Of a stretch of DNA of 22,041 bases, positions 3,061 through 18,837 are shown in pieces. The stretch is from positions 1 through 22,041 of the IMG/VR virus record IMGVR_UViG_3300006753_000093. One strand, written 5' to 3'. The notes under the pieces were generated by a model. That model saw only the letters and a list, made by a program, of their open reading frames with translations, was not told the origin of the DNA and made no database searches. The translations under genes were made by a program, and so were the position numbers. The first letter of the stretch is position 1; each line of letters begins with the position of its first letter. Source of the stretch: a virus.

Positions 3061-4046
3061 TGGACGCTATCCCAAAGGACGTGGACGAAGAACTCAAAGA
3101 AGATGAAGCATTAGAAGAGAAACTATCCAGACATGAATCTGAAATAGAACGAATTGCCGCTAATGTCCAAGAAGGACATGAAAATTTTGACAATGATATT
3201 ACCGGCAAAGAAGAAGAACCAACTGTTACCGAAGAGGAATACCATAACCCTCTACTAAGGAAGGATGACGAGTGGTACGTTAATGCCAAGGTAGATGGTA
3301 AAGAGGTAGAGGTTCCGTGGAATGAAGTTGTTTCACAGTACCAAAAGAAATCTTCTGGTGACAAGAGACTTCAACAGGCCGCAGAAAAGCAACGAGAGTT
3401 GGAGGATTATGAGGCCAAGTTGAATGCATATAGGACTCAATTAGAGTCCCAAACACGCCCGCCATCTACGGACGCGGGTGAATCGCCATCCGACCCGGAC
3501 GCGACTGACGCTCTTTATGAGCAATACCACGATGCCCTCTTTCAAGGTGATGAAACTAAAGCAAGTAAATTGCTGAAGAAGATTCGCACATCAGAAAAGC
3601 CAGCACCTCAAATTGATGTCAAGAATATCATTGAGCGTACAAAGACAGAGATGAGAGAAGAGGAGAAAAAGGCCAGAGAACGGGGTTATGAATCTCGTCG
3701 AAAGCAAGCAGTAGAGATGTTCCATAAGGAATTTCCCGAAGTTGCTCAAGACAAATCATTACTCGCTGTTGCTGACCGTCGTTCTGCTGAACTCTACGCA
3801 GAGAATCCTACCCGTGATCCTTGGGACATCATGCAAGAATGCGCTACATATGCGCGGGAATGGCTGATGCAGTATGTGGATGAACTGGGCGGAAAATCTA
3901 AGGGAGTCACGCGCCAGAAGCGCAAACAGGACATGGATGAGGTTGCGCCTAGGAACGTCAGAGGCCATCTCGGCGAAGACGAGACTCAGCCAACTTATTC
4001 CGACATCATATCGGAGATGAAGAAAGAAAGGGGTCAACCCTCTTAA
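3060..4046 (+). CDS. Putative capsid scaffolding protein
   Basis: Probably directs assembly of the capsid protein into procapsids and is lost on maturation. It has the usual composition: very acidic N-terminus (residues 5-60), a short ordered segment around 71-90 (EWYVNAKVDGKEVEVPWNE), predicted coiled coil at about 100-130, a Pro/Ser/Asp-rich linker at 132-150, a second charged helix at about 185-222, and a basic patch near the C-terminus (about 279-303, with RQKRKQ). Basic C-terminal regions bind coat protein in P22-type scaffolds. It lies immediately before the major capsid gene. AGGAG at 3050-3054 is a good ribosome binding site. No protease catalytic motif is visible, so a separate prohead protease is not apparent. 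Assignment rests on composition and position. Confidence 0.7.
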   Translation: MDAIPKDVDEELKEDEALEEKLSRHESEIERIAANVQEGHENFDNDITGKEEEPTVTEEEYHNPLLRKDDEWYVNAKVDGKEVEVPWNEVVSQYQKKSSGDKRLQQAAEKQRELEDYEAKLNAYRTQLESQTRPPSTDAGESPSDPDATDALYEQYHDALFQGDETKASKLLKKIRTSEKPAPQIDVKNIIERTKTEMREEEKKARERGYESRRKQAVEMFHKEFPEVAQDKSLLAVADRRSAELYAENPTRDPWDIMQECATYAREWLMQYVDELGGKSKGVTRQKRKQDMDEVAPRNVRGHLGEDETQPTYSDIISEMKKERGQPS

Positions 4047-4084
4047 TCTCCGCACTTTAACAATCTGTAAAGGAGAAACAGCTA

Positions 4085-5056
4085 ATGGCTGGACAGGTAT
4101 GGGGAACAAGTTCCCTAGGTGGGTACATGTACTCACTAAACTTATCCAAGGAACTGCGTGTTTCTCTGCGACCGATTGTGAAGTTTCGTCAGTTTGCTGA
4201 TGTTAAGGATGCCGCGCATCAAGGTCTTAGCAAGGGTGATACATTCCATTGGAATGTGTATTCAACTGTTGCGACCGGTGGTGCGGCATTAGTCGAAAAT
4301 ACGGCGATTGCTGAAACAAATTTCACGATCACGCAGGGGACAATGACTGTTAACGAGTTTGGTAATAGCGTTCCTTTCACCTCCAAGCTGGATGATCTGT
4401 CTGAGCATCCTGTCAAGGAGATAATTCACAAAGTCCTGAAGGTGGACGCCGCGCAGGTGTTAGATGGTTTGGTTGCAGATCAAATCGACACATGTAAGTT
4501 GCGTGTTGTAGCAGAAACATCAACCTCTGCTGTAACGCTAACTACTGATGGCACTGCAACGCTTACCAATACCATTGCGTTGGGCAAGGATCATATCAAA
4601 TCTATTGTTGATATTATGAAAGAGAGAAATATTCCATCCTATGAAGGTGACGATTATTTCTGCCTTGCATGGCCTACCACTTTCCGTACCCTAAAGAACA
4701 ACCTAGAATCGATCAATCAGTATGTCGAAACTGGTTTCCAGATGATCCGTAATGGTGAAACTGGTCGTTACGAAGGTGTACGTTTTGTCGAACAGACGTA
4801 TCGTGCCAAAGGTGGCTCTGCCACTGGTATGGGTACACCTGCCGGTGCATGGGCAGGAGGATTGTCCGATTGGGCTATTTTCTTTGGTTCTGATACCGTT
4901 GCCGAGGCTGTTGCGATTCCTGAAGAGATTCGGGGCAAAATCCCAACGGACTACGGACGTTCGAGAGGTATCGCTTGGTACTACTTAGGTGGTGCTGGTC
5001 TTATTCACACTACTGCCGCAGAATCCCGCGTTGTTATGTGGGATTCCAAGGCTTAG
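4085..5056 (+). CDS. Major capsid protein
   Basis: A 323-aa protein with the hallmark N-terminus of a widespread podovirus coat family: LGGYMYSLNLSKELR (11-25), an Arg/Phe segment KFRQFAD (33-39), KGDTFHWNVYS (50-60), then EFGNSVPFTSKLDDLSEHPV (91-110). Later parts include a D-T-alternating beta region (about 150-165) and a Gly/Ala-rich C-terminal domain. It resembles the HK97-fold coat proteins annotated as N4-gp56 or P22-like in marine phages. The ribosome binding site is the strongest in the region (AAAGGAG at about 4070-4076), as expected for the most abundant virion protein. It follows the scaffold gene after a 38-base gap and is cotranscribed with a 57-aa gene up to the terminator at 5254-5280. 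Confidence 0.85.
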   Translation: MAGQVWGTSSLGGYMYSLNLSKELRVSLRPIVKFRQFADVKDAAHQGLSKGDTFHWNVYSTVATGGAALVENTAIAETNFTITQGTMTVNEFGNSVPFTSKLDDLSEHPVKEIIHKVLKVDAAQVLDGLVADQIDTCKLRVVAETSTSAVTLTTDGTATLTNTIALGKDHIKSIVDIMKERNIPSYEGDDYFCLAWPTTFRTLKNNLESINQYVETGFQMIRNGETGRYEGVRFVEQTYRAKGGSATGMGTPAGAWAGGLSDWAIFFGSDTVAEAVAIPEEIRGKIPTDYGRSRGIAWYYLGGAGLIHTTAAESRVVMWDSKA

Positions 5057-6739: not shown

Positions 6740-7812
6740 AAAAAATAGTCGTCCCAAATATACCTTGGGGCGAGTTAACTGATAATGACCTTGGCGGGGT
6801 AAGAGAAAATACAGTTGGCCTAGTCAGGTATGGTGGATTCGGTGATGCCCTACAGATAAGTTCTATCTTTCCACTGTTGAAAGAGAAGGGTAAGAGGGTA
6901 TGCGTTAACGTCACTGAGAGAAGTTACGAAATACTTAGAAATGACCCTAATATAGATGAATTTCTTATTCAAAAAACAGATCAAATTCCTGTAGAAGAAT
7001 TGGGCCAATATTGGGAACGTCTTGGGAAACTCTTTGATCAGTTCACCAATCTTGGGGGCATTATTGAGCAGGGGCTTCTCTGCTTAGAGGGTCAGGATAT
7101 CTATACTGCACCCCATGAAGAACGACACGCATTACTGAATAAGAATTACTCAGAACTACTTCACAGTACGGCTGAAGTTGACCATATATTCAAGGTTAAT
7201 TTTTATCCTTCCAAGTCTGAAAGAAAGTGGGTAAAGGTTCAACGTAAGAAGATGAAGCTAACGGCTAATAATTACGTTGTAATGATTACTCTTTCTGGAT
7301 CATCCGTACATAAAGCCTATCCATACATGGATAGTGTTATTGCAAAGTTGTTATTAAAGTACCCTTCAGTACGCATAGTTATGGTGGGTGATGAAGTATG
7401 TCAGATTCTTGAGAGAGGATGGGAACAAGAACCACGAATATTTATGCGTAGCGGTAAATGGAATATTAGAAAAACATTAGCGTTTGCACAACAGGTTGAT
7501 TTAGTTCTTGGGCCTGAAACTGGGGTACTTAATGCGGTGAGTTCTGATGACGTGGCAAAAATATGTCTTCTTAGTCACTCATCAATTGAAAATTTAACAA
7601 AGCATTGGACTAATACTACTTCTTTATATCCAAACAATGTTTCTTGTTATCCATGTCATATGATGCATTTTGGTTTCAAGAGTTGTAATAGGGATAATGA
7701 AACGGGAGGCGCAATGTGCGCCGCGAAAATAAACCCAGAGGATGTAGTGTTAGCTGTTCAACATCATAGGAAATTGAAGTATGACGTTTCTGGAACTCTG
7801 TCAAACAGTTAG
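6733..7812 (+). CDS. Glycosyltransferase family 9 (heptosyltransferase-like) protein, non-canonical start
   Basis: Probably transfers a sugar from a nucleotide donor in the manner of ADP-heptose:LPS heptosyltransferases. The N-terminal Rossmann-type domain carries VRYGGFGDA (31-39 from the proposed start), the Gly-rich GT9 loop, then SSIFPLLKEKGKRVCVNV. The C-terminal domain has SGSSVHKAYP (188-197), VRIVMVGDE, VDLVLGPETG (255-264, the usual 'D..ig.dtG' donor site), and Cys at 305, 308, 318 and 329 as in some GT9 proteins. The first ATG/GTG/TTG in frame is TTG 6877, which would cut off the Gly-rich loop. The frame is open back to the TGA at 6709-6711, and I favour ATC 6733 (GGGA at 6721-6724), giving 359 aa. 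It overlaps the adaptor gene by 32 bases. It may modify host LPS or a virion glycan. Confidence 0.7.
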   Translation: MVKKIVVPNIPWGELTDNDLGGVRENTVGLVRYGGFGDALQISSIFPLLKEKGKRVCVNVTERSYEILRNDPNIDEFLIQKTDQIPVEELGQYWERLGKLFDQFTNLGGIIEQGLLCLEGQDIYTAPHEERHALLNKNYSELLHSTAEVDHIFKVNFYPSKSERKWVKVQRKKMKLTANNYVVMITLSGSSVHKAYPYMDSVIAKLLLKYPSVRIVMVGDEVCQILERGWEQEPRIFMRSGKWNIRKTLAFAQQVDLVLGPETGVLNAVSSDDVAKICLLSHSSIENLTKHWTNTTSLYPNNVSCYPCHMMHFGFKSCNRDNETGGAMCAAKINPEDVVLAVQHHRKLKYDVSGTLSNS

Positions 7813-8467
7813 ACAGGAAGTTGGGATATCTGGAACTGGCCCAACTACTGTATTAAGTCAGGAAGGACAACTAAAGGTTATTGTTGATTTTGTAATAGCG
7901 GCAGATCATCAGATTCAATCGCTTTGGCATGATTGGGATTTCCTTTGGGGTCAATACTCTTCGACTGTAGCCCTTGGAAGCCGATCTCCCGCATTGGGGA
8001 AACCTACTGATCTAGGGAGCTGGGATTTTAGGTCTTTCTATCTTGATTACACATCTGATGATGCTACGAACTTATCTGAACTGTCTTATGTTGATTGGAG
8101 AGCAGATTACAGACAAGGTACATCAACGAATCAGAATCCTACGTTTTTTGTTATACAACCTGATAACAATGTAATCGTAGAATCTACCGCTGATAAAGCA
8201 TATACGATAACAGCGGATTACTGGAAAACGCCAACTGATTTGGCGGCAAATGCTGATATTTCTGCAATTCCACCTCAGTACCACAGGATTATTGTTGCAA
8301 GAGCAAAAACTATGTGGGCAGAGCGTGAAGAGGCACCAGAAATACTTTTAGCTTCTTCAGCAGAGTATCAGGATTTGCTGGATAAATTGGAATCACAATC
8401 GTTACCGGGACAACGAAACAGACGTTTTGGTGTGCTGGACACGGATCAGGTGGTTCGACCCATATGA
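7781..8467 (+). CDS. Head-to-tail adaptor (tail tube protein A / SU10-adaptor-like)
   Basis: A 228-aa protein that probably forms the ring joining portal to tail. The N-terminus MTFLELCQTVRQEVGISGTG, followed by helices and an IQSLWHDWDFLWGQ segment (about 45-58), is typical of podovirus adaptors where 'IQ..w.dW.fl' is conserved. A beta-rich middle (about 60-155) is followed by IPPQYHRIIVARAKTMWAEREEA (about 166-188), a conserved C-terminal helix in this group. AGGA at 7768-7771 serves the ATG at 7781, which lies inside the end of the glycosyltransferase gene. The stop overlaps the nozzle gene as ATGA, and adaptor-nozzle pairing is the standard order. Exact family membership is from memory. 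Confidence 0.7.
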   Translation: MTFLELCQTVRQEVGISGTGPTTVLSQEGQLKVIVDFVIAADHQIQSLWHDWDFLWGQYSSTVALGSRSPALGKPTDLGSWDFRSFYLDYTSDDATNLSELSYVDWRADYRQGTSTNQNPTFFVIQPDNNVIVESTADKAYTITADYWKTPTDLAANADISAIPPQYHRIIVARAKTMWAEREEAPEILLASSAEYQDLLDKLESQSLPGQRNRRFGVLDTDQVVRPI

Positions 8468-10578
8468 CGAATATCTATAGTGAACTATTAGGAAGGAGTT
8501 CATTCCCCTCATCTTCTATGAGGGCGAAGTATTTCCCGTTTACTGGCGGTGAAGTATTAACTGATCCAGCCCTTTCTCAACAGCCCGGTACACTCTTATA
8601 CGGAAAAAATTACGAGGTGTATCCTGAAGGCGGTTATCGAAGAATAGATGGGTTCGAGCGGTTTGATGGAAAAACAAAGCCTTCTGAAAGCCTTTACTGG
8701 ATTCTTGAATTCAATGCCGGTACTACGGCTACAGTAGATACCAATGTAATTACTGGCGCAAGTTCTAGTGCAACAGCAGAACTTATTGCTGATGCTGTAG
8801 TTGAAAGCGGTTCTTATGCTGGAAATGATGCCGTGGGATATATGGCTGTTGCCTTACTTACAGGAAGTTTCACTGTGGGTGAGAATATACAGGTAAGCGC
8901 ATCAACAGTTGCCGTGGTCAAGACTATTGCAAATGCATTAGGAGCAACAACAGATGCCCTTGATGATACTTATACTCAAGCCGCTATTGAGAGGGCGAGA
9001 TCAAAAATAGCAGTTGTTCCCGGTTCTGGGGCTATTAGGGGTGTATGGGTTTATAACGGAACTACTTATGCATTCAGAAATAATGCTGGTGGCACTGCTA
9101 CCGCTATGTATAAGTCATCTGCAACAGGATGGACGCTTGTTGATCTTGGTAAGTATATAAAGTACAACACTGGAAGTGCCGCAGTAAGTGAGGGCGACAC
9201 TATAACAGGTGCTACGTCCAGTGCTACTGGCGTTGTTCGACGTGTTGTTATTCAGGGTGGGGCAACTGGAACTAGCGATGCGCGAGGATTGTTTGTTCTT
9301 ACTGGTGTGACTGGTACATTTCAAAATGCGGAAAACTTACAAGTAAGTTCCTCTACTGTAGCAGTCTCAACTTCTGCCTTGGTTACTATTGCATTGGTTC
9401 CCGATGGCACTTATGAATTCATCAATTACAACTTTGGTGGATCAGCAACTACCGTGCGTATGTATTGGGTAGATGGAATGAATACTGCTTTTGAGTGGGA
9501 TGGAACTTATGCTGTTCCATTGTTCACAGGTATGACTGTTGATACGCCGCGTCATCTTTCTGCCCATAAAAAACATCTATTCGTTTCTTTTAATAAGGGT
9601 TCATTACAGCATTCTTCTATAGGTGACCCCTATGGATGGTCGCCTGTTACTGGTGCGGCTGAAATAGGAACTGGTGACGAAATTACAGGCATGATGGTAA
9701 TGCCCGGTGATGCGATGTCTGTGTTTAATCGAAACCGCATTTACATACTATACGGAACAAGTTCAGCAGATTGGAACCTTAAAACATTTTCTAACGATTC
9801 TGGAGCCGCAGAATGGACTATACAGAATCTTACAGAAACGCTTTTCCTAGATGACCGTGGTGTAACTACTTTTTCTGCAGTTAATGCTTATGGAGACTTT
9901 TCTATGAATTCCATAAGTAAAAAAATAGCCCCTATTATTCAGGATAAAAAGGGCTTATCAATCTCTTCTGTTCGGGTGAGAACTAAAGGTCAGTACCGTT
10001 TGTTTTTTAATGATGGAACCGGAGTGTATGCCACCTTTAGTGGAAACAAATTGGCGGGATTTATTCGAGTAGATTTAGGAAAAGTTATATATAACATTTG
10101 TTCTGCGGAGGATGCTCTTGGTGACGAGATTATATTCTTTGGATCAAGCGACGGTTATATATATCAAATGGATAAAGGAACTTCTTTTGATGGCGGTGAA
10201 ATAGAGGCCATCCTTAGAACTGCTTATTACCATTACGATACTCCAACGAGAGATAAACGTTATAGAAAGGTTCAGTTTGAGTTATCTGCTGATTCCAGTG
10301 TTTCTCTTAAATTTCAACCTTCTTATTCATTCTCTGATCCAGATGTCCCAGAGTCTAGAACTAGGGATTTGTCCATTGAGGGTGCTGGTGGTTATTGGAA
10401 TATCGCTAATTGGGATGCATTTAGATGGACGGGTCAAATTATTTCAACATCGGAAGAGAATATTGATGGGGTAGGTACAAACATGGGAATTCTTATTCTC
10501 TCAGAAGCAACTTATGAGCAACCGCACATACTTCAAGGTGTCACTGTGCATTACTCGCCACGGAGGATCAGACGCTAA
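8464..10578 (+). CDS. Tail nozzle / tail tubular protein B-like
   Basis: A 704-aa, beta-rich protein that probably forms the distal tail nozzle, as T7 gp12 and P22 gp10 do. The N-terminus has the typical pattern of Pro/Gly-rich lead, GKNYEVYPEGGYRRIDGFERFDG (48-70). Propeller-like repeats then include GVWVYNGTTYAFRN, MYWVDGMNTAFEWDGTY, PRHLSAHKKHLFVSF and later MMVMPGDAMSVFNRNRIYILYG. Residues about 87-155 and 237-305 are two copies of one insertion containing ITGA.SSAT and the N.QVS.STVAV motif. The C-terminal region is a beta-sandwich ending in HYSPRRIRR. The gene overlaps both neighbours (ATGA before, TAATG after). The fibres follow immediately, as expected if they attach near the nozzle. 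Confidence 0.7.
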   Translation: MTNIYSELLGRSSFPSSSMRAKYFPFTGGEVLTDPALSQQPGTLLYGKNYEVYPEGGYRRIDGFERFDGKTKPSESLYWILEFNAGTTATVDTNVITGASSSATAELIADAVVESGSYAGNDAVGYMAVALLTGSFTVGENIQVSASTVAVVKTIANALGATTDALDDTYTQAAIERARSKIAVVPGSGAIRGVWVYNGTTYAFRNNAGGTATAMYKSSATGWTLVDLGKYIKYNTGSAAVSEGDTITGATSSATGVVRRVVIQGGATGTSDARGLFVLTGVTGTFQNAENLQVSSSTVAVSTSALVTIALVPDGTYEFINYNFGGSATTVRMYWVDGMNTAFEWDGTYAVPLFTGMTVDTPRHLSAHKKHLFVSFNKGSLQHSSIGDPYGWSPVTGAAEIGTGDEITGMMVMPGDAMSVFNRNRIYILYGTSSADWNLKTFSNDSGAAEWTIQNLTETLFLDDRGVTTFSAVNAYGDFSMNSISKKIAPIIQDKKGLSISSVRVRTKGQYRLFFNDGTGVYATFSGNKLAGFIRVDLGKVIYNICSAEDALGDEIIFFGSSDGYIYQMDKGTSFDGGEIEAILRTAYYHYDTPTRDKRYRKVQFELSADSSVSLKFQPSYSFSDPDVPESRTRDLSIEGAGGYWNIANWDAFRWTGQIISTSEENIDGVGTNMGILILSEATYEQPHILQGVTVHYSPRRIRR
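8722..8928 (+). repeat. Nozzle insertion repeat, copy 1
   Basis: Encodes residues about 87-155 of the nozzle protein. Shares ITGA.SSAT and a distal N-[IL]-Q-V-S-[AS]-S-T-V-A-V with copy 2 at 9172-9378. Diverged in DNA, so it is an old duplication seen at protein level. Confidence 0.7.
9172..9378 (+). repeat. Nozzle insertion repeat, copy 2
   Basis: Encodes residues about 237-305: DTITGATSSATG, a Gly-rich turn, then a FLTGTF-like strand (LTGVTGTF) and NLQVSSSTVAV. The matching block in copy 1 is LLTGSF...NIQVSASTVAV. The two copies are separated by about 80 residues that look like ordinary nozzle sequence. Confidence 0.7.
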
Positions 10579-12749
10579 TGGCGAATGACTATTATACAAG
10601 ACAAGGCTCTTACACAAAGGGAACGCTCGCTAGAGGCGACGTTGTTAAGTCCGATTATGATGCATTGGTTACTGCTTTTGATTTAGCGCAAACAAACATC
10701 AAGAGGGCAATCAAACTTCCAGATGAAGGAAGCCCACAGACTGATTTTCTATTTACAGAAAATGCCGCTAACCGTGCTACGAAAGCAATCGGCTTTGACA
10801 CTGCTGGCGCATTAGAACTACAGGCTGGCGTAGGTAGCTGGGAAGGAACATGGGCTACTAGCACCGCTTACACGTTACGCGATGTTGTGGTTGATGGTGC
10901 CGCAGGTGCTAATACAGATAACCTCTATATATGCATTGTCGCTCACACTTCTGGTACATGGTCTACTGATCTAGCCGCCGCTAAGTGGGAGTTGATGGTT
11001 AATGTCGCAGATGCTAGAGATTGGGCTAGAAAGACGGATGGAATTGTTGATTCAACTGATTACTCGTCGAAAGCCTACGCTATAGGTGGTACAGGGGTTA
11101 CTGATACCGCTGGAAAGGGCGCGTCTAAAGAATGGGCAACTGAAACATCTGGAACAGTAGATGGAACCCTTTACTCATCCAAGGAATACGCAGTTGGCAC
11201 ACAAGCATCTACTGGCGGTTCTGCAAAAGATTACGCAGTAAAGGTTGATGGCGGTGTTAGTGGTGCAACATCAGACCATTCATCTAAAGCATGGGCAGTT
11301 GGCGGTACTGGAGTAACGGATACCGCATCAAAGGGTGCCGCAAAAGAGTGGGCTACAGAAACTTCCGGCACAGTAGATACATCTTCTTACTCGGCAAAAG
11401 AATATGCACAAGGTACACAGGCATCCACGGGCGGGTCTGCGAAGGACTACGCACAAAAGGTTAACGGCGGAGTCAGTGGAGCCACTTCTGACCACTCTTC
11501 AAAGGCATGGGCAGTGGGTGGTACAGGCGTCACCACGACAGCCTCTAAAGGTGCATCGAAAGAATGGGCGACGACTACAGGCGGATATGTTGATACCGCT
11601 GAATACTCTGCAAAAGAATATGCCATAGGAACAACGGTAGCGGCTGGTTCTGCTAAAGATTGGGCTATGCAAGCCAGCGGAACGGTGGACGGTACATCCT
11701 ACTCAGCAAAATATAATGCCGATGCCGCCGCGACATCAGCGACATCTGCAAGTTCATCAGCCTCGACTGCAACGACTCAAGCCTCGGCGGCGTCAACATC
11801 AGCAACGTCTGCCGCGAGTTCAGCAACATCTGCGGCGGCGTCATATGATTCATTCGATGATCGGTATTTGGGAGTCAAGAGTTCCGATCCCACATTGGAT
11901 AATGATTCGAATGCGTTGGTCGATGGGGCTTTATATTTTAATACGACCAATAACGTAATGATGGTCTATGATCTTGGGAATACAACTTGGCTTAGAACCA
12001 CACCAACTTCCACAGATCAAGGACACATCAATACCGTTAGTGGAATCCAAGCGAATGTAACAACTGTCGCGGGAATTTCGAGCGACGTAACTTCAGTAGC
12101 GGGTAAGGCAACTGAAATTGGTTTACTTGGTGTTGCTGGTGTAATTACGGATATGGGTATTTTAGGTACTGCCGATGTCGTAGCAGACATGAACACCCTT
12201 GGTACGGCAGATGTAGTTACAGACATGAATACTTTGGGAACCGCCGACGTAGTAGCCGACCTAAATACTCTTGGAACAGCAGACGTAGTAGCAGATATGA
12301 ATACATTGGCTACGGCTGGAAATGTCACTGCGATGGATAACTGTTCAGGATCAATTGCTAACATAAACACAGTTAGCGGTTCGATTGCTAATGTGAATAC
12401 TACGGCATCCAACATAACTGGAGTCAACAGTTTTGCCGAGCGGTATAGGGTTGAATCTTCTAATCCTACAACTTCTTTGGACGAAGGCGATCTGGCATAT
12501 AACACAACTTCCAACGCTCTATCTTATTACGATGGTACTTCATGGAACGCAATCACATCCGATACAGACGTAAAGGTTGGAGTGAGTTCTAATGACACCA
12601 CGGCAGGTTACTTAAACGGAAAACTTGTAGCCGGTACTCTGGTTACATTAACTGAAAACAGCGATGGCGGTAACGAAACTTTAACAATTGCATCTACTGG
12701 AGATGCTTCGGGGACAGGTGTTGCGATGGCAATAGCCTTGGGGGGCTAA
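10578..12749 (+). CDS. Long tail fibre / spike with tandem repeats (723 aa)
   Basis: Residues 1-80 form an N-terminal head probably used to join the tail. Residues about 86-140 (W88, W92, Y98, Y117, H123, W137) resemble a CBM5/12-type carbohydrate-binding module. Residues 164-379 are three 72-residue repeats built from [SA]K-x-[WY]-A motifs. Residues 383-422 are almost only Ala, Ser and Thr, a flexible or coiled-coil linker. Residues about 424-472 contain FDDRYLGVKSSDP and GALYFNTTNNVMMVYD, a block common in marine phage fibres, and a second diverged version follows at about 613-650 (FAERYRVESSNP, GDLAYNTTSNALSYYDG). Between them are five 12-residue repeats (527-586). Ribosome binding site GGAGG at 10562-10566. 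Likely a trimeric receptor-binding fibre. Confidence 0.78.
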   Translation: MANDYYTRQGSYTKGTLARGDVVKSDYDALVTAFDLAQTNIKRAIKLPDEGSPQTDFLFTENAANRATKAIGFDTAGALELQAGVGSWEGTWATSTAYTLRDVVVDGAAGANTDNLYICIVAHTSGTWSTDLAAAKWELMVNVADARDWARKTDGIVDSTDYSSKAYAIGGTGVTDTAGKGASKEWATETSGTVDGTLYSSKEYAVGTQASTGGSAKDYAVKVDGGVSGATSDHSSKAWAVGGTGVTDTASKGAAKEWATETSGTVDTSSYSAKEYAQGTQASTGGSAKDYAQKVNGGVSGATSDHSSKAWAVGGTGVTTTASKGASKEWATTTGGYVDTAEYSAKEYAIGTTVAAGSAKDWAMQASGTVDGTSYSAKYNADAAATSATSASSSASTATTQASAASTSATSAASSATSAAASYDSFDDRYLGVKSSDPTLDNDSNALVDGALYFNTTNNVMMVYDLGNTTWLRTTPTSTDQGHINTVSGIQANVTTVAGISSDVTSVAGKATEIGLLGVAGVITDMGILGTADVVADMNTLGTADVVTDMNTLGTADVVADLNTLGTADVVADMNTLATAGNVTAMDNCSGSIANINTVSGSIANVNTTASNITGVNSFAERYRVESSNPTTSLDEGDLAYNTTSNALSYYDGTSWNAITSDTDVKVGVSSNDTTAGYLNGKLVAGTLVTLTENSDGGNETLTIASTGDASGTGVAMAIALGG
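11067..11714 (+). repeat. Three tandem 216-bp (72-residue) repeats in the fibre gene
   Basis: Units run 11067-11282, 11283-11498 and 11499-11714. Each reads SKA[YW]A[IV]GGTGVT..., then SKEWAT...G.VD, YS[SA]KEYA.GT, GSAKD[YW]A and, in units 1 and 2, GGVSGATSDHS. The protein units are nearly identical but the DNA is scrambled by synonymous changes. Confidence 0.92.
12156..12335 (+). repeat. Five tandem 36-bp (12-residue) repeats in the fibre gene
   Basis: Consensus NTLGTADVVADM. The first four copies differ by at most two or three residues and the fifth is diverged (NTLATAGNVTAM). Weaker related heptad-like units (INTVSGI, VTTVAGI, INTVSGS) flank the block on both sides. A trimeric coiled coil or beta-helical shaft is likely. 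Confidence 0.9.
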
Positions 12750-12752
12750 CAA

Positions 12753-13100
12753 ATGGCAAATGATTTTCAAACGAAAGAACTGGCGTTAACTACCAGTTTT
12801 CAAGCATTGGTTCCTTCTGATACGACGGGAGAGAAAACGGTACACGCTATCTATTTCTCCAATAAGGATGGAACCAACAGCGCAGATGTTTACTTGAGCC
12901 TGTATGACAACGCGGGGACGCCAGCGGAGAAAGCAAAGATTCTCCACGCGGTGCAAGTTCCAGCGGGTAGTACGTTGGTGGTTGAGAAACCACTCAACCT
13001 AACGTGCAGTGCTACGGGTGCAACCGCTAGGCAGTTATACGCAAAGGCATCTGCAAATGGCGACATAGATGCTGTGGCTTCAGTACTCTACATGACATAA
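12753..13100 (+). CDS. Small beta-rich protein between fibres (115 aa)
   Basis: A Thr, Ala and Val-rich protein with alternating hydrophobic residues typical of a single beta-sandwich: KTVHAIYFSNKDGTNSADV (28-46), KILHAVQVPAGSTLVVEKPL (62-81), and a C-terminal IDAVASVLYMT. Proteins of about this length and pattern ('...N....s..V.l.l.d......ip.p.gstl.v......l..gd.i.v') often lie among fibre genes of uncultured marine phages, with no known function. It starts three bases after the 723-aa fibre stop. A fibre-capping, decoration or attachment subunit fits, but is inferred. Confidence 0.7.
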   Translation: MANDFQTKELALTTSFQALVPSDTTGEKTVHAIYFSNKDGTNSADVYLSLYDNAGTPAEKAKILHAVQVPAGSTLVVEKPLNLTCSATGATARQLYAKASANGDIDAVASVLYMT

Positions 13101-13110
13101 GGGTGGCTAA

Positions 13111-14793
13111 ATGTCTTATCTAGGAAGAACTCAAAACAAATCGAGCGATATTCGCAGATTTGATGTAACCAGTTCTACATCTGCTACGCACACGTTAACG
13201 TGGACTCCCCCCAATGAGCAGTCCCTTATAGTCACGATTAACGGTGTTAAACAGCATGAGGACGCTTACTCAGTCTCCGGTACTACGCTCACCCTGACAT
13301 CGGCCTTGGTTGCTGAAGATAAACTGGAAGTCATCGGTATCAACGATATCGGAACTACGATTACTCCAGCGCAAGGTTCAGTAGATACAGACCAACTTGC
13401 TAACGATGCTGTTACTTCTGCAAAGATAGTAGACGGAACTATTGTTAATGATGATATAAATTCATCTGCGGCTATAGCAAATAGCAAAATGGCTTCTGAT
13501 ACTACTGATGCATCTAATATCTCATCCGGTAATTTAGCGGTAGCCAGACTTAATTCAGGAACATCAGCGTCTGCTACTACTTTTTGGAGGGGTGATGCAA
13601 CATGGGTTACACCAACAGATACTACATACAATGACGCAGCAGTTCTTAATGATATAGCCACTCTAGCATTACATTCCGCCGTTCAGAATAATCAAGCAGC
13701 CTATAACTTATCTAATGCTTTTATAGATCAATATGAGGACAGCAGTGGTATTGATGTTGCAACCGATTGCTCCAGAGTTGCATCTGGAGAATATGTGTCT
13801 ACGATTTACACTACTGCTGGTAATGACTCTTATACAGTTCTACTCCTACATTGCGATGGGGCTGATGATGGAACTACTTTTACTGATTCTTCAGCATCTG
13901 GACATACTATAACGGAATCAAGTGCTGTTACTAAAACCGCAATTAAAAAGTTTGGAACAGCGTCTGCTTACTTTAGCGGCAGTGCAATGCTAAACGCACC
14001 AGATGGAAGTGATTGGGTTTGGGGTTCTGATCCTTGGACAGTAGACACGTGGGTTTATAATGATAATCAAAGTACCTTAACTAGATTATTTTCATATATT
14101 GGAGCAGGCCCGGTGTATGGACTTTATTGCCGTCCAAGTGGCCAATTTTACTACGGCGGCTATTCACCCGCTCTTTCTCTTGATGGGTTTGATGTTGATT
14201 ATGCCGATAATACATGGACACACCTAGCATGGGATTATGATGGATCAGGAACTGCAAGAAGTTATGCTAATGGTGTGGTTCAAAAGACTCAGACTGGTAT
14301 TTCGGGTTCAGGAACAGATGCAAGCGCAACTTTTAGAATTGGTAACGCATCAACATCCTCACAGTACTACATTGGTTATATGGATGAAATCCGTGTATCA
14401 AAAGGAATCGCTAGATATGAGGGGGCATTTACGCCGCCTACTGAGGGGTATGGTGTGACCAGTACAAATGCTGCAGGAAACTATACATCTACTACAGAAA
14501 CAGCTTCCGCAACAGTTAGTGAGATGGGAATTGTTGTTCTTTATAAAAATGCGTATGGAACAGCGACTCTAAATACAGATTTGATTGCAGCGATATCAGC
14601 GGATGGTGGAAGTAATTACACTACTACAACCTTAACTGCGGCTGGAACCTTCTCCACAGGGATAAATATAGCGGTGGCAAATGGAGTCAGCATAAGCAAT
14701 ACTGGAACAGCACCAAAATATAAAATTAGTTTTGCTAATCAATCTGCATCATCAAAAGAAACCCAAGTCTATGGCGTTGCACTACTCTATTAG
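13111..14793 (+). CDS. Modular tail fibre paralogue 1, LamG-like central domain (560 aa)
   Basis: Residues 1-80 form a beta domain (LTWTPPNEQSLIVTINGVKQ at 29-48) common at the start of phage fibres. Residues 90-130 carry SAKIVDGTIVNDDI repeats. The linker at about 178-217 (NDIATLALHSA, YNLSNAFIDQYED) is shared with the paralogues. Residues about 241-447 look like a LamG/concanavalin-type fold: LLLHCDGADDGTTFTDSS, FGTASAYFSG, WTVDTWVY, TWTHLAWDYDG, YIGYMDEIRVSKGIARY. This is the expected order of LamG_3 strands. Residues 457-560 are the shared C-terminal module ending YGVALLY. The stop TAG forms part of TTAGGA, the probable ribosome binding site of the next gene. Likely a receptor-binding fibre recognising a glycan. 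Confidence 0.8.
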   Translation: MSYLGRTQNKSSDIRRFDVTSSTSATHTLTWTPPNEQSLIVTINGVKQHEDAYSVSGTTLTLTSALVAEDKLEVIGINDIGTTITPAQGSVDTDQLANDAVTSAKIVDGTIVNDDINSSAAIANSKMASDTTDASNISSGNLAVARLNSGTSASATTFWRGDATWVTPTDTTYNDAAVLNDIATLALHSAVQNNQAAYNLSNAFIDQYEDSSGIDVATDCSRVASGEYVSTIYTTAGNDSYTVLLLHCDGADDGTTFTDSSASGHTITESSAVTKTAIKKFGTASAYFSGSAMLNAPDGSDWVWGSDPWTVDTWVYNDNQSTLTRLFSYIGAGPVYGLYCRPSGQFYYGGYSPALSLDGFDVDYADNTWTHLAWDYDGSGTARSYANGVVQKTQTGISGSGTDASATFRIGNASTSSQYYIGYMDEIRVSKGIARYEGAFTPPTEGYGVTSTNAAGNYTSTTETASATVSEMGIVVLYKNAYGTATLNTDLIAAISADGGSNYTTTTLTAAGTFSTGINIAVANGVSISNTGTAPKYKISFANQSASSKETQVYGVALLY

Positions 14794-14801
14794 GATAAAA
14801 C

Positions 14802-16031
14802 ATGGCTAGAACAACAATCAGAAGCGAAGATATCGCTGACAGCGAAATAACCTCTGCGAAGATAGCGGATAGCACAGTAGTAGCGGCAGACGTTGCTGAT
14901 GATTCCATCACTAATGCCAAGATCAAGTCAGACGCATCTATAGCGGCAACCAAACTAGCAGGTACTCTGGATTTATCTTCCAAGACGGTAACGCTACCAG
15001 CGGCATCAGTTACCGCGCACGTTACCCAAACTGATCTTTCTCCTGTTAGGAATGACATAGCAACGCTCGCACTGCACTCAGCGATTGCCGACAACAAAGC
15101 GGCTTACAACTTATCGAATTCCTTTATAGACCAGTTCGAGGACAGCACAGGTATTGATGCCACAAGCACAACGATAAGAGATACTACGAGCGAATATGTT
15201 TGGTGTGCCACTGCATCATCGACAGAAACTTTAGGCTATAACGACAGTTTAACAATCGCTTATAGCACTACCGGCGGATCCACCCATCTACAGTCCTCAG
15301 GATCGTATTTAGAAAATAATAGTCTCAGTACAACCTATGGTTGGTATTTTATTGGGGGTTCTGGCATTGCATATCTTATTTATGATATGACCAAACCAGT
15401 TGTTTTGTCGGAAGCGCAATTTCATTCTTTCAATACAGCGGCGCGTCCTAAAGATATGTATTTGGAATGGTCGTCAGACAATTCATCTTGGACAGAAGTA
15501 GTACCGACTGGGGTTGTTTCTGGTTTGGGTGGTTCAATAAGTGGAAATAAGTATACCGCTGACAATACTGACGCGTGGAAGGGGATTACCTTTAGCGCAC
15601 TCTCCGCAAGATATTGGCGATGGAGAGGGGAAACTGTTCACAACAACGGCAACAACTACGCAGGGATTTCTGAAACGAAATTTCCGAGTGCGTACTATTA
15701 CACTGTTAGTTCTTCTGGAAACTATACATCTACCACTGAAGCCTCTGTCGCATCCGTTAGTTCAATGGGAATTGTTGTGCTTTATAAAGATGCCTCTGGC
15801 ACAGCATCTCTGAATACCGATCTCATTGCACAGGTTTCAGCCAACGGTGGCACGAACTACTCAAACGCCACGCTTGTTGCGGGTGGAACATTCTCGACTG
15901 GAATAAAAATAGCGGCAGTCAGTGGCGTTTCGGTAACAGCGGGAACTACGCCAAAATACAAAATATCTTTTGCCAACCAATCTGCGGGTAGTAAAGAAAC
16001 GCAGATACACGGCGTTGCACTACTCTATTAG
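14802..16031 (+). CDS. Modular tail fibre paralogue 2, discoidin-like central domain (409 aa)
   Basis: This one lacks the N-terminal beta domain and starts directly with [SA]-K-I type repeats (SAKIADSTVV, NAKIKSDASI). Linker at residues 55-117: SSKTVTLPAASVTAHVT, NDIATLALHSAI, YNLSNSFIDQFED. Residues about 165-295 resemble a discoidin (F5/8 type C) galactose-binding domain: YLIYDMTKPVVLSEAQFHSF, MYLEWSSDNSSWTEV, WKGITFSALSARYWRWRGE and a final GISETKF. Residues 306-409 are the shared C-terminal module (SMGIVVLYKDASGTASLNTDLIA at its core). Without the N-terminal domain it may attach to another fibre or to the nozzle through its repeats. It could form hetero-oligomers with the longer paralogues. 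Confidence 0.78.
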   Translation: MARTTIRSEDIADSEITSAKIADSTVVAADVADDSITNAKIKSDASIAATKLAGTLDLSSKTVTLPAASVTAHVTQTDLSPVRNDIATLALHSAIADNKAAYNLSNSFIDQFEDSTGIDATSTTIRDTTSEYVWCATASSTETLGYNDSLTIAYSTTGGSTHLQSSGSYLENNSLSTTYGWYFIGGSGIAYLIYDMTKPVVLSEAQFHSFNTAARPKDMYLEWSSDNSSWTEVVPTGVVSGLGGSISGNKYTADNTDAWKGITFSALSARYWRWRGETVHNNGNNYAGISETKFPSAYYYTVSSSGNYTSTTEASVASVSSMGIVVLYKDASGTASLNTDLIAQVSANGGTNYSNATLVAGGTFSTGIKIAAVSGVSVTAGTTPKYKISFANQSAGSKETQIHGVALLY

Positions 16032-16040
16032 GAATTAACT

Positions 16041-17282
16041 ATGGCATTAACAAAAGTAAAGAGCGGTATGAGAACGCTGGCAACCGATGAAGTTACCGCA
16101 ACAGAGATTGCCGCTGGTGCAGTCGATACTGCGGAGATCGCTACCGATGCAGTGACTGCAAACGAAATCGCGGCGGGTGCTGTCGCGGCATCAGAGATCG
16201 CATCGACGTTCGATATTTCATCCAAGACGGTAACGCTACCGGCGGCGGCAGTTACTGCTCACGTTACAGCCACAGATATAAAGCCACTGGAAAACAACAT
16301 TGCACTGTTGGGATTTTATCGAGCCATCGATAACAACAAGGCAGTGTACGAAATGCAAGATGTTGTCATCGATAATTTTGAAGATGCGACGGGTGTTACG
16401 TCATCTACAAACGGCAGTCGAGATGCTACGGGTGAATACTACTCGCTCGAAGGCGATGGAACCTTTGGCTACGGAGACAGTATTTCAATTACTTGGACAG
16501 CATTTGTTTCGGGTGAAGCCAGTCCACGTTCAGTCCCAAATTTAGAAGATAACAGCACTGCATATGCTAACGGAACTGGTGCCACATCGAACTGGCAAAT
16601 TCAAGCCGATCTTGGAGCGGAGTACAACATAACAGGGTGGCAAGGTTACCACTCACAAGCAAACGGCATGGTTGCTACGGCACAGATGATGACTAAAGAC
16701 TCCGCTTGGTCTACGTCAACTTGGAACGATGGCACGGCAACCATCAATACATCATCCGGTGGATTGACCGCATCAACAGGAATTACCAGTGTTAGCGGAA
16801 CCACGATCAATGTCACCAACGGAACGGGATGGAAGAAAGTAACGTTCAGTGGCGTCACCACACGTTATATCGCTTGGCAAAACATGACGACTCAAGTGGG
16901 TAACGGGAATCACTACTGCGAGGAAGTTCAGATTTTTCACCGCTCACCTACCAACGCGACTGGCAACGTTATCAGCACGACCACTACTGCAAAAACTCAG
17001 CCGACTAAAGCCAGTGGTTTATTAATGATTGAGAACGCAGGTGGTACGGCAGTGCTGAATACAGACATCAAGATGTACGCCAGTCGGGATGCCTCTACAT
17101 ACACGCAAGGTACTTTGGTAGACGAAGCAACATGGGGAACTAACAAAAAAGTTTTAGCCTTCAACGACCTCGACATCTCTGGACAACCCTCCGGCACATC
17201 GATGCGATGGAAACTCGAATGGGCGAACCAAGCAACCGCCAAGAACACGCGCATCCACGGTGTTGCGCTCATGTGGAAATAA
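16041..17282 (+). CDS. Modular tail fibre paralogue 3, discoidin-like, most diverged (413 aa)
   Basis: A short N-terminal lead (MALTKVKSGMRTLATDEV) is followed by 10-residue repeats of the type AV[TDA]..EIA.. (residues 18-55). The linker at 60-75 matches paralogue 2, and 20 bases of DNA are identical (14979-14998 and 16221-16240). Its later linker is changed: ALLGFYRAIDNNKAVYEM replaces the usual TLALHSAI...YNLS. Residues about 160-300 look discoidin-like: NWQIQADLGAEYNITGWQGY, WKKVTFSGVTTRYIAWQ, HYCEEVQIF. The C-terminal module (308-413) is the most diverged and ends HGVALMWK, although the core GTAVLNTDIKMYAS and KLEWANQAT are recognisable. The gene overlaps nothing and is followed by a 4-base gap. 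Confidence 0.77.
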   Translation: MALTKVKSGMRTLATDEVTATEIAAGAVDTAEIATDAVTANEIAAGAVAASEIASTFDISSKTVTLPAAAVTAHVTATDIKPLENNIALLGFYRAIDNNKAVYEMQDVVIDNFEDATGVTSSTNGSRDATGEYYSLEGDGTFGYGDSISITWTAFVSGEASPRSVPNLEDNSTAYANGTGATSNWQIQADLGAEYNITGWQGYHSQANGMVATAQMMTKDSAWSTSTWNDGTATINTSSGGLTASTGITSVSGTTINVTNGTGWKKVTFSGVTTRYIAWQNMTTQVGNGNHYCEEVQIFHRSPTNATGNVISTTTTAKTQPTKASGLLMIENAGGTAVLNTDIKMYASRDASTYTQGTLVDEATWGTNKKVLAFNDLDISGQPSGTSMRWKLEWANQATAKNTRIHGVALMWK

Positions 17283-17286
17283 AAAT

Positions 17287-18747
17287 ATGAGTTACATAGG
17301 AAACGAACCGAGGTTTACTCAGTTCCCATCTAAGTTCTTTAATGGGGACGGCTCCGCAATGACGGTGACCCTAGACTATGCTCCACCTAATGATGCCGCC
17401 TTACTGGTCTTCATAGACGGGGTAAGACAGGATACTGATGCGTATAACTGTACAGGAACGAGTTTAACTTTTACTGGCGCAGTACCCACTGGAACCGCTA
17501 ACGTACAAGTAGTTCACATGGGGCTGACGCTGGACGTAGGTGTACCCGGTGATGATACAGTCACTGCGGCGAAGATTCAGGATGATGCAGTAACGTCTGC
17601 TAAAATAGTAGATGGTGCAATCGTGAACGCCGACATCAATGCGAGTGCGGCGATTGCACAATCCAAACTGGTAAACATAGTGGACGCAGACATAGATGCG
17701 TCAGCGGCAATCGGTGCGGGTAAGTTGGCATCGACTCTTAACTTGGCGAGCAAGACAGTTACATTACCAGCCGCATCAGTTACTGCTCATGTAACTGCGT
17801 TCGATGACGTTCCAATACGAAATGACATTGCGACTTTAGCACTACACTCAGCAATCTCTGATGACAGAGTAGCCTTCAATTTATCCAACGCCTTTGTGGA
17901 TCAGTTCCAAGATGATACCGGACTGGATGTAGAAACATCGACTGACCGACACGCAAGTGAATACGTGAAGATTGCGGCAGGGGCAGAGACACTACTTGCA
18001 CATGATGTTGGAACCATCGACTCCACAAATTTCACTGTGGGTAGCACACCTGAAAACCTCTACGACGGCATTCATTCGACTACCGCGGGGGCTACAGCCT
18101 CTGCAGAACCGAGTTGGGTTATTTATGATTTTGGTTCGGGGAACGCAAAACTTCTAACCAAGACCATAACGTATGGGCGTGAAAACAGTGGGGGATATGG
18201 TGGTTACGATTACTACGATCCAAGTATAACGATCAATGTTTTAGGGTCTAACGATAATAGTAGTTACACCGACTTGGGTGGTGCTGTTACTTTTACGGAC
18301 ACGGCATCTCCAAACCCTCAAACCATTACGCACACGACGACGACTGCTTATAGATATGTCAAAACAACATTGTCTGCCGGTGACATAATGACTGAAGTAC
18401 AACATTACAACGTGCCAGATGTTGCGGCTGGTAATTTTACGTCTGTTACTCAAACCGCTTTAGCAACCGTTAGCAAGATGAGCATCATCGTGCTTTATAA
18501 AAATACTCTAGGCACGGCAACGCTTAACACAGATTTGGTTGCGTCAGTTTCATCCAATGGGGGTACAAATTACAACGCCGCTACACTGACTGCGGGAGGC
18601 ACATTTTCGACTGGGATTCTTATTGCTAAATCGAACGACATAACAATCAGCAATACCGGCACTGCCCCTAAATATAAAATTGCTTTCGCTAATCAAGCAA
18701 CAGCAACTAAAGCGACAGAGATACACGGTGTGGCACTTCTTTATTAG
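17287..18747 (+). CDS. Modular tail fibre paralogue 4, discoidin-like central domain (486 aa)
   Basis: The start is ATG 17287 (MSYIGNEPRF), chosen because it aligns with paralogue 1 (MSYLGRTQNK); the frame runs nine codons further upstream into the preceding gene. Residues 1-80 form the N-terminal beta domain (LDYAPPNDAALLVFIDGVRQ at 29-48). Residues 92-150 are AKI/ADI repeats, and the linker is at 155-212. Residues about 247-375 are discoidin-like: ENLYDGIHST, SWVIYDFGSGNAKLL, INVLGSNDNSSYTDLG, AYRYVKTTLSAGDIMTEVQHY, matching the usual strand order. Residues 381-486 are the shared C-terminal module ending HGVALLY. No clear ribosome binding site precedes the start (AAATAAAAAT), so it may depend on coupling to paralogue 3. 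Confidence 0.8.
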   Translation: MSYIGNEPRFTQFPSKFFNGDGSAMTVTLDYAPPNDAALLVFIDGVRQDTDAYNCTGTSLTFTGAVPTGTANVQVVHMGLTLDVGVPGDDTVTAAKIQDDAVTSAKIVDGAIVNADINASAAIAQSKLVNIVDADIDASAAIGAGKLASTLNLASKTVTLPAASVTAHVTAFDDVPIRNDIATLALHSAISDDRVAFNLSNAFVDQFQDDTGLDVETSTDRHASEYVKIAAGAETLLAHDVGTIDSTNFTVGSTPENLYDGIHSTTAGATASAEPSWVIYDFGSGNAKLLTKTITYGRENSGGYGGYDYYDPSITINVLGSNDNSSYTDLGGAVTFTDTASPNPQTITHTTTTAYRYVKTTLSAGDIMTEVQHYNVPDVAAGNFTSVTQTALATVSKMSIIVLYKNTLGTATLNTDLVASVSSNGGTNYNAATLTAGGTFSTGILIAKSNDITISNTGTAPKYKIAFANQATATKATEIHGVALLY

Positions 18748-18756
18748 GAATAAAAC

Positions 18757-18837
18757 ATGGCGATCACAAAAGTAACTTCTGGGGTTCGAGACATCGCAAC
18801 TGGCGAAGTCGTAGCGGGTGACTTGGGGTGGAGTTAA
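18757..18837 (+). pseudogene. Truncated fifth fibre paralogue (26 codons)
   Basis: Starts at ATG 18757 after TTAGGAATAAAAC, the same stop/ribosome-binding arrangement as between the other fibres. The product MAITKVTSGVRDIATGEV followed by VAGDLGWS aligns with the start of paralogue 3 (MALTKVKSGMRTLATDEV) and then ends at TAA 18835-18837. It keeps a working start site but has lost repeats, linker, central domain and C-terminal module. It is best read as a deletion remnant at the end of the fibre array. A functional 26-aa peptide cannot be ruled out. Confidence 0.65.

Follow-up and report, generated by a model that had tools for sequence, protein, structure and literature searches.

A conserved linker and C-terminal module around probably exchangeable lectin-like centres in four predicted fibre genes of a marine phage

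Four consecutive genes (A to D) in the 22,041-bp window, which is an entire viral record and the whole stretch of DNA analysed here, share a linker (LK) and a C-terminal module (CM) and differ in what lies between these two. The question raised by this locus is whether such an array arose from a single duplicated fibre gene or from separate genes that use a common frame, and what that frame might do. The reading preferred here, which we consider probable, is that A to D each encode a tail-attached fibre or receptor-binding protein in which LK and CM form a bracket that acts as the socket for an exchangeable centre.

The array and its shared modules

The window encodes an SU10-type portal (identified by Pfam) as well as a major head protein and tail genes (identified by PHROG). 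Its nearest isolates are Vibrio phages, with 43% identity in the portal and 51% in the major head protein; the portal family makes a short-tailed phage plausible. The array is located with the tail genes, directly behind tail228, t704, and F723. The last of these matches tail fibre PHROGs (1.4e-22 and 2.7e-21) and has orthologues in the loci L177, L183, L199, and others. The small protein Q115, encoded next, has orthologues with 36 to 98% identity in most mapped relatives. The features of the array are the following.

10578..12749, + strand: F723, main tail fibre-like gene directly upstream, the first gene of the array, conserved in relatives
12753..13100, + strand: Q115, conserved small protein encoded between F723 and slot A
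13111..14793, + strand: gene A (slot A), 560 aa, with anchor domain, stalk, LK, LamG centre, and CM
13111..13400, + strand: anchor beta domain of A, MSYLG type, also present in slot A of 11 relatives, as a clade with 100/100 support
13630..13794, + strand: LK of A
13795..14466, + strand: centre of A, LamG/concanavalin-like (Laminin_G_3, 1.2e-14, residues 292-431)
14467..14790, + strand: CM of A (E 2.3e-44)
14802..16031, + strand: gene B (slot B, MARTTIRSEDI type), 409 aa
15033..15197, + strand: LK of B
15198..15710, + strand: centre of B, F5/8 type C-like (PF00754, 2.4e-5, below the Pfam cut-off)
15711..16028, + strand: CM of B, closest bracket L084_9187
16041..17282, + strand: gene C (slot C, MALTKV type), 413 aa
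16275..16439, + strand: LK of C, whose strands complete the CM jelly roll in the C model
16440..16952, + strand: centre of C, probably F5/8C/CBM32-like (model match 4a42_A at low pLDDT, no Pfam hit)
16953..17279, + strand: CM of C, a divergent subtype (E 1.2e-35)
17287..18747, + strand: gene D (slot D), 486 aa from the ATG at 17287
17287..17577, + strand: anchor beta domain of D (PHROG 18673, tail fibre), in a clade with 10 relatives (support 100/100)
17803..17964, + strand: LK of D
17965..18420, + strand: centre of D, CBM32/CBM62 (F5/8C) fold (PF00754, 2.8e-5, and structural matches)
18421..18744, + strand: CM of D (E 3.2e-42)
18757..18837, + strand: remnant, a 26-codon ORF (MAITKVTSGVRDIATGEVVAGDLGWS) with a slot C-type anchor start, cut off after ~24 residues

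All four ORFs are intact. Gene D starts with the ATG at 17287 rather than with the GTG further upstream (17260); the ATG yields the MSYIGNEP start that relatives retain. LK (~55 residues) and CM (~107 residues) are found in every one of the four proteins, with CM matches of E 1e-35 to 1e-44, and DNA repeats of 217, 118, 109, and 88 nt occur within the array, so that the shared linker and C-terminal module of the original prediction are real. The amino acid identity of CM is 0.72 between A and B, 0.68 between A and D, and 0.62 between B and D; C is the outlier, since its identity to the other three is only 0.37 to 0.40. The N-terminal beta domain is present in A and D and absent from B and C, as had been proposed. 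The predicted remnant after the fourth gene was likewise recovered: the short ORF resembles slot C gene starts, is preceded by a ribosome-binding-site-like leader, and looks like a slot C start that lost its tip.

The middles had been described as LamG-like in the first gene and discoidin-like in the others; the family and model searches confirm this for A and point to it, less firmly, for B, C, and D. The centre of A matches Laminin_G_3 with 55.2 bits against a Pfam cut-off of 27.6, and those of B and D reach 24.9 and 24.7 bits with F5/8 type C against a cut-off of 28.2. The centre of C had no Pfam match in the sequence search; its model resembles the CBM32 chain 4a42_A (Z 10.3, 118 aligned, rmsd 2.7) in a region where pLDDT is mostly 30 to 62. 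The D centre model resembles CBM32/CBM62 chains (Z ~10, rmsd 2.7 to 2.8 over 100 to 104 residues). With LamG in A and the F5/8C type in B and D, the four centres do not represent one fold evolving in place, and A to D can be predicted to carry different lectin-type heads, C being the uncertain one. A scan with gene C retrieved no relatives.

No second contig spanning the B-C or C-D junction was found in a search that may omit near-identical records; an assembly chimera is possible and is disfavoured by the A-B-C-D order, which is kept in relatives. Among the neighbouring genes, t704 (704 aa, 8464-10578) has longer orthologues of 857 to 983 aa in L195, L197, L199, and L201, owing to an internal expansion. 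A 311-aa ORF between the head and tail genes (6877-7812) is 58.9 to 67.4% identical in relatives where matched; it has neither a Pfam nor a PHROG match and by eye recalls a glycosyltransferase. A scan with the 340-aa protein encoded downstream of the array found none, and no reverse transcriptase, such as a diversity-generating retroelement would carry, was detected among the genes covered by the Pfam and PHROG family scans.

The LK-CM bracket and its predicted fold

In the loci fetched, CM is present in 86 of 88 LK proteins, enclosing centres of 145 to 423 residues; some of these loci came from a first scan that was seeded with the LK and CM patterns of gene B, which favours co-occurrence. 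The 14 proteins retrieved by CM alone are free of that bias and all contain LK (5/5 distinct phages and 9/9 SAR11 genome loci). The identities of the two modules also co-vary (Mantel r 0.81, p 0.0005, 76 proteins). Pfam contains no family for CM itself, and the only PHROGs that CM matches are of unknown function.

In the searched isolate and genome collections, CM is confined to SAR11 phages, one uncultured Pelagivirus, and SAR11 genomes. A scan of bacterial genomes from 84,980 species with a single CM as the query gave nine matches (L249-L257), all in Pelagibacteraceae records, which are probably phages or prophages in SAR11 cells. In 5/5 phages (L241-L245), a conserved ORF of 79 to 80 aa lies directly behind the bracketed gene; that of HTVC011P has a weak match to a hemolysin PHROG and may be holin-like.

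The structure of the bracket was addressed with models of monomers only. In the C model, CM has pLDDT >90 over most of its length, and LK forms a helix ahead of its strands. Chains of CBM4-2, CBM61, the Eph ligand-binding domain, gingipain K1, and reelin align with residues 105..413 of this model over 120 to 130 residues, skipping the centre. These alignments are longer than CM alone, so that the LK strands join CM. The top structural match of the C model is the baseplate protein 9eui_Q of Staphylococcus phage phi812 (Z 15.0, 253 aligned), with an rmsd of 10.7: the domains match and their mutual placement differs. In sequence searches, the fused LK + CM matches Reelin_subrepeat-B at 9.5e-6, which is below the Pfam cut-off and lies within CM only, and the LK + CM profile gave nothing significant in the PDB. 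The C model suggests one jelly roll made jointly by LK and CM: LK would probably contribute the first strands, CM would complete the fold, and the centre would be a domain inserted within it.

The same helix, together with the D model, in which LK is loose and not confidently placed, could also be understood if LK and CM were independent domains that form no joint jelly roll, namely, a coiled-coil trimerisation linker and a C-terminal folding or trimerisation domain of the kind that ends many phage fibres. Such an arrangement is possible but unlikely, given the near-obligate pairing of LK with CM, their strong co-divergence, and the joint alignment of the LK strands and CM with known jelly rolls. 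Under the preferred reading of a common fold, there is a roughly even case that LK and CM each supply half of an undescribed marine-phage socket, specialised for whole-centre exchange in structure (as an insertion-site jelly roll) and in genetics (as conserved recombination arms), which can be mounted on any slot and fills all four here, with a different lectin-like head on each.

Anchor slots and the role of the array

The proposed explanation is that A to D are separate fibre or receptor-binding proteins that each occupy one conserved anchor slot in the host-recognition island of a marine phage, and that each would consist of an anchor, a stalk, LK, a centre, and CM. Residues 2-125 of D match the tail fibre PHROG 18673 (8.2e-14), both A and D match the minor tail protein PHROG 2012 (about 2e-5), and B and C weakly match a tail fibre PHROG (5e-4 and 2e-5). 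Judged by these anchors and the position of the genes, the products would be located in the virion as anchored fibres; their predicted lectin-like centres would bind glycans, and the phage could display up to four different carbohydrate-binding-type surfaces. Such a set might bind several receptors at once, and the mixed fibre crown or the reservoir for host-range change suggested in the original prediction are conceivable roles. As LamG and F5/8C are general carbohydrate-binding folds, the same proteins could conceivably decorate the virion or bind environmental glycans rather than the host. This is improbable because the D anchor domain belongs to a tail fibre PHROG, the array adjoins the tail genes, the corresponding gene sits behind the tail fibre in SAR11 phages, and host-recognition genes typically exchange rapidly (PMC3909814).

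In the phages that share the portal and tail genes with the window, the corresponding stretch consists of successive short genes, and their N-termini reappear in a constant order, with some slots missing in some of the phages. These starts read M[SP]Y[LIM]G in slot A, M[AT]RT[TV]IR in slot B, M[AP][LI]TKV in slot C, and MSYIG.EPQF...FFNGDG in slot D, after which further types follow. The A and D anchors are reciprocally monophyletic, forming two clades at 100/100, and the short N-termini of B and C are common to slots B and C of the relatives. The tips behind these anchors vary freely (C1q-like, glycine-rich, LamG, and others), so that the host-recognition gene content differs between close relatives: anchors are kept and tips changed. 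The slots of the relatives mostly hold unrelated tips; in the window, all four hold the LK-centre-CM chassis. None of the other loci examined has more than three CM genes, and none of the other slot D genes inspected carries a CM. In L195 (12922-16985) and L196 (5241-9319), F723 is replaced after ~145 residues, and an ORF of 1,009 to 1,011 aa of unassigned type follows in place of the slot array.

The brackets of A to D are 0.16 to 0.52 identical at fourfold sites, which is at or near saturation, and the A, B, and D brackets each have nearer relatives in other phages than among themselves. The sister of the B bracket, L084_9187, carries LamG (support 100/98); the nearest to the D bracket, L122_4683, also carries LamG and sits in slot C. 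On this evidence, the A-D brackets are ancient, and the chassis came into the different slots either separately or long ago. Their N-termini show A to D to occupy four separate anchor slots; the genes are not simple tandem paralogues. The duplicated set that had been proposed is, consequently, not supported: the scenario in which a single fibre gene was recently duplicated in tandem, with its copies then receiving new centres inside this genome, would account for four consecutive genes with an identical module order and for DNA repeats that span the CM end, the intergenic leader, and the start of the next gene, but it is very improbable in view of slot-specific N-termini that are orthologous across phages, the fourfold-site values, and the bracket relatives found elsewhere.

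A link between the anchor and the N-terminal domain of T7 gp17 was considered and is at most tentative. An iterated profile matched SAR11 phage fibres at ~1e-8; this is read as profile drift, because an HMM search with a profile made from the slot A and slot D anchors only gave no significant match to gp17. In hhalign, the anchor reached a probability of 85 with the gp17 N-terminal domain over only 38 columns.

Exchange of the centres

In three pairs of near-identical relatives, the whole centre has visibly been exchanged within the LK-CM bracket. L090 and L133 are 94.7% identical in nucleotide sequence over 3.6 kb until a point inside LK, and the match picks up again from the first codon of CM with 97.4% identity; one centre is a domain of the F5/8C cluster and the other a LamG domain. 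In L114 and L088, which have a downstream flank of 98.4% identity, the match runs 16 nt beyond LK and resumes 12 nt before CM, and the centres differ. L250 and L254, from SAR11 single-cell genomes, have flanks of 94.6 to 95.5% identity; here the match is lost within LK and returns 4 nt ahead of CM. In L090/L132 and L133/L097, the brackets are 82 to 93% identical in DNA where nothing else aligns; together with 83 to 90% identity at fourfold sites, this points to recent movement of the bracket between lineages.

At the BLAST level, ~25 centre families occur among 78 proteins; the Pfam tally of the centres stands at 23 LamG, 10 F5/8C, and 6 glycine-rich. Mapping fold class onto the bracket tree requires at least 11 changes, compared with a minimum of 2, so that the bracket and centre histories disagree. 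These changes and the three near-identical pairs support the domain-shuffled receptor-binding set of the original prediction. In the lineage of the window itself, the exchange would be older, as judged from the bracket tree. The least probable alternative, that the centres are one fast-evolving fold that changes in place, accords with B, C, and D perhaps all being of the F5/8C type, and LamG in A and glycine-rich centres within the same bracket speak against it; the unrelated or unalignable centres of the three pairs refute it across the family, though it is possible for B, C, and D within the lineage of the window.

For the exchangeable-centre reading, the proposed means is homologous recombination within the conserved sequences of LK and CM; it would swap a lectin-like centre as a whole. 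Since the centre is attached at either end to one and the same conserved socket, the stalk would be left undisturbed. The near-identical pairs, in which the middle is cleanly replaced between the two parts of the frame, point to a natural way to alter what a fibre grips, and the bracket would offer a simple structural reason for the tolerance of whole-domain exchange.

Variable host-recognition genes are well documented in marine phages. The metaviromic islands of marine and SAR11 phages, which resemble the array of the window in this respect, contain variable tail fibre, C1q-like, lectin-like, XkdW, and tail fibre assembly genes (Mizuno et al. 2014, PMC3909814). The accessible text of that report covers a conserved N-terminus with a variable C-terminus and C1q variability, and it does not describe a two-sided bracket or orthologous slots. 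Similarly, modular tail fibres and tailspikes, for example the receptor-binding proteins of Klebsiella phages, have a conserved N-terminal anchor and an exchangeable C-terminal receptor domain that is subject to horizontal transfer (PMC8262889). They share with the window a conserved anchor and an exchangeable specificity module; in the window, however, the C-terminal module is also conserved and paired with a linker, and the exchanged piece is internal. What appears to be new, relative to such islands and to anchored proteins with swapped C-terminal parts, is the bracket on both sides of the centre, of which no description was found in the family libraries and the accessible parts of the literature searched. 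The usual rule for phage receptor-binding proteins, a conserved N-terminus and a variable C-terminus, is replaced here by a variable internal part with both flanks conserved.

Among SAR11 phages and their kin, HTVC011P, HTVC201P, HTVC028P, HTVC121P, and Pelagivirus S35-C6 each carry a single LK-centre-CM gene, located downstream of that for the tail fibre, in contrast to the four in the window, with a different centre in each and an annotation as hypothetical or putative lectin. Conversely, HTVC115P (SAR11) and Melnitz (OM43; PMC9004378) have series of short genes whose anchors are of the type seen in the window, combined with small chaperone-like ORFs and Gly-rich tips but without the LK-CM chassis. 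The series in HTVC115P sits behind a Q115-like gene, which is assigned as the counterpart of Q115 by position. CM can serve as an annotation marker for genes now labelled hypothetical, and receptor choice in some of the most abundant viruses of the ocean becomes testable domain by domain.

Several small ORFs were noted between slot genes. In L122, an ORF of 210 aa (4043-4675) lies between two bracketed genes and by eye resembles 2OG-Fe(II) oxygenases, a group listed for variable islands in PMC3909814. The idea that bracketed genes have a small chaperone ORF of their own was rejected, as the listed followers are, by eye, other fibre starts or holin-like or unrelated ORFs. By the same kind of comparison, non-bracketed tips often have XkdW-like small ORFs behind them. 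Three of these ORFs were scanned and match XkdW (PF09636) at 3.8e-4 to 8e-11. They are 86 to 107 aa long, lie between slot genes (15106-15429, 17132-17392, and 18502-18762 in L177 and 10983-11282 in L214), and also have weak matches to a PHROG of tail fibre assembly; each comes after a non-bracketed tip, and none occurs between the four genes A to D.
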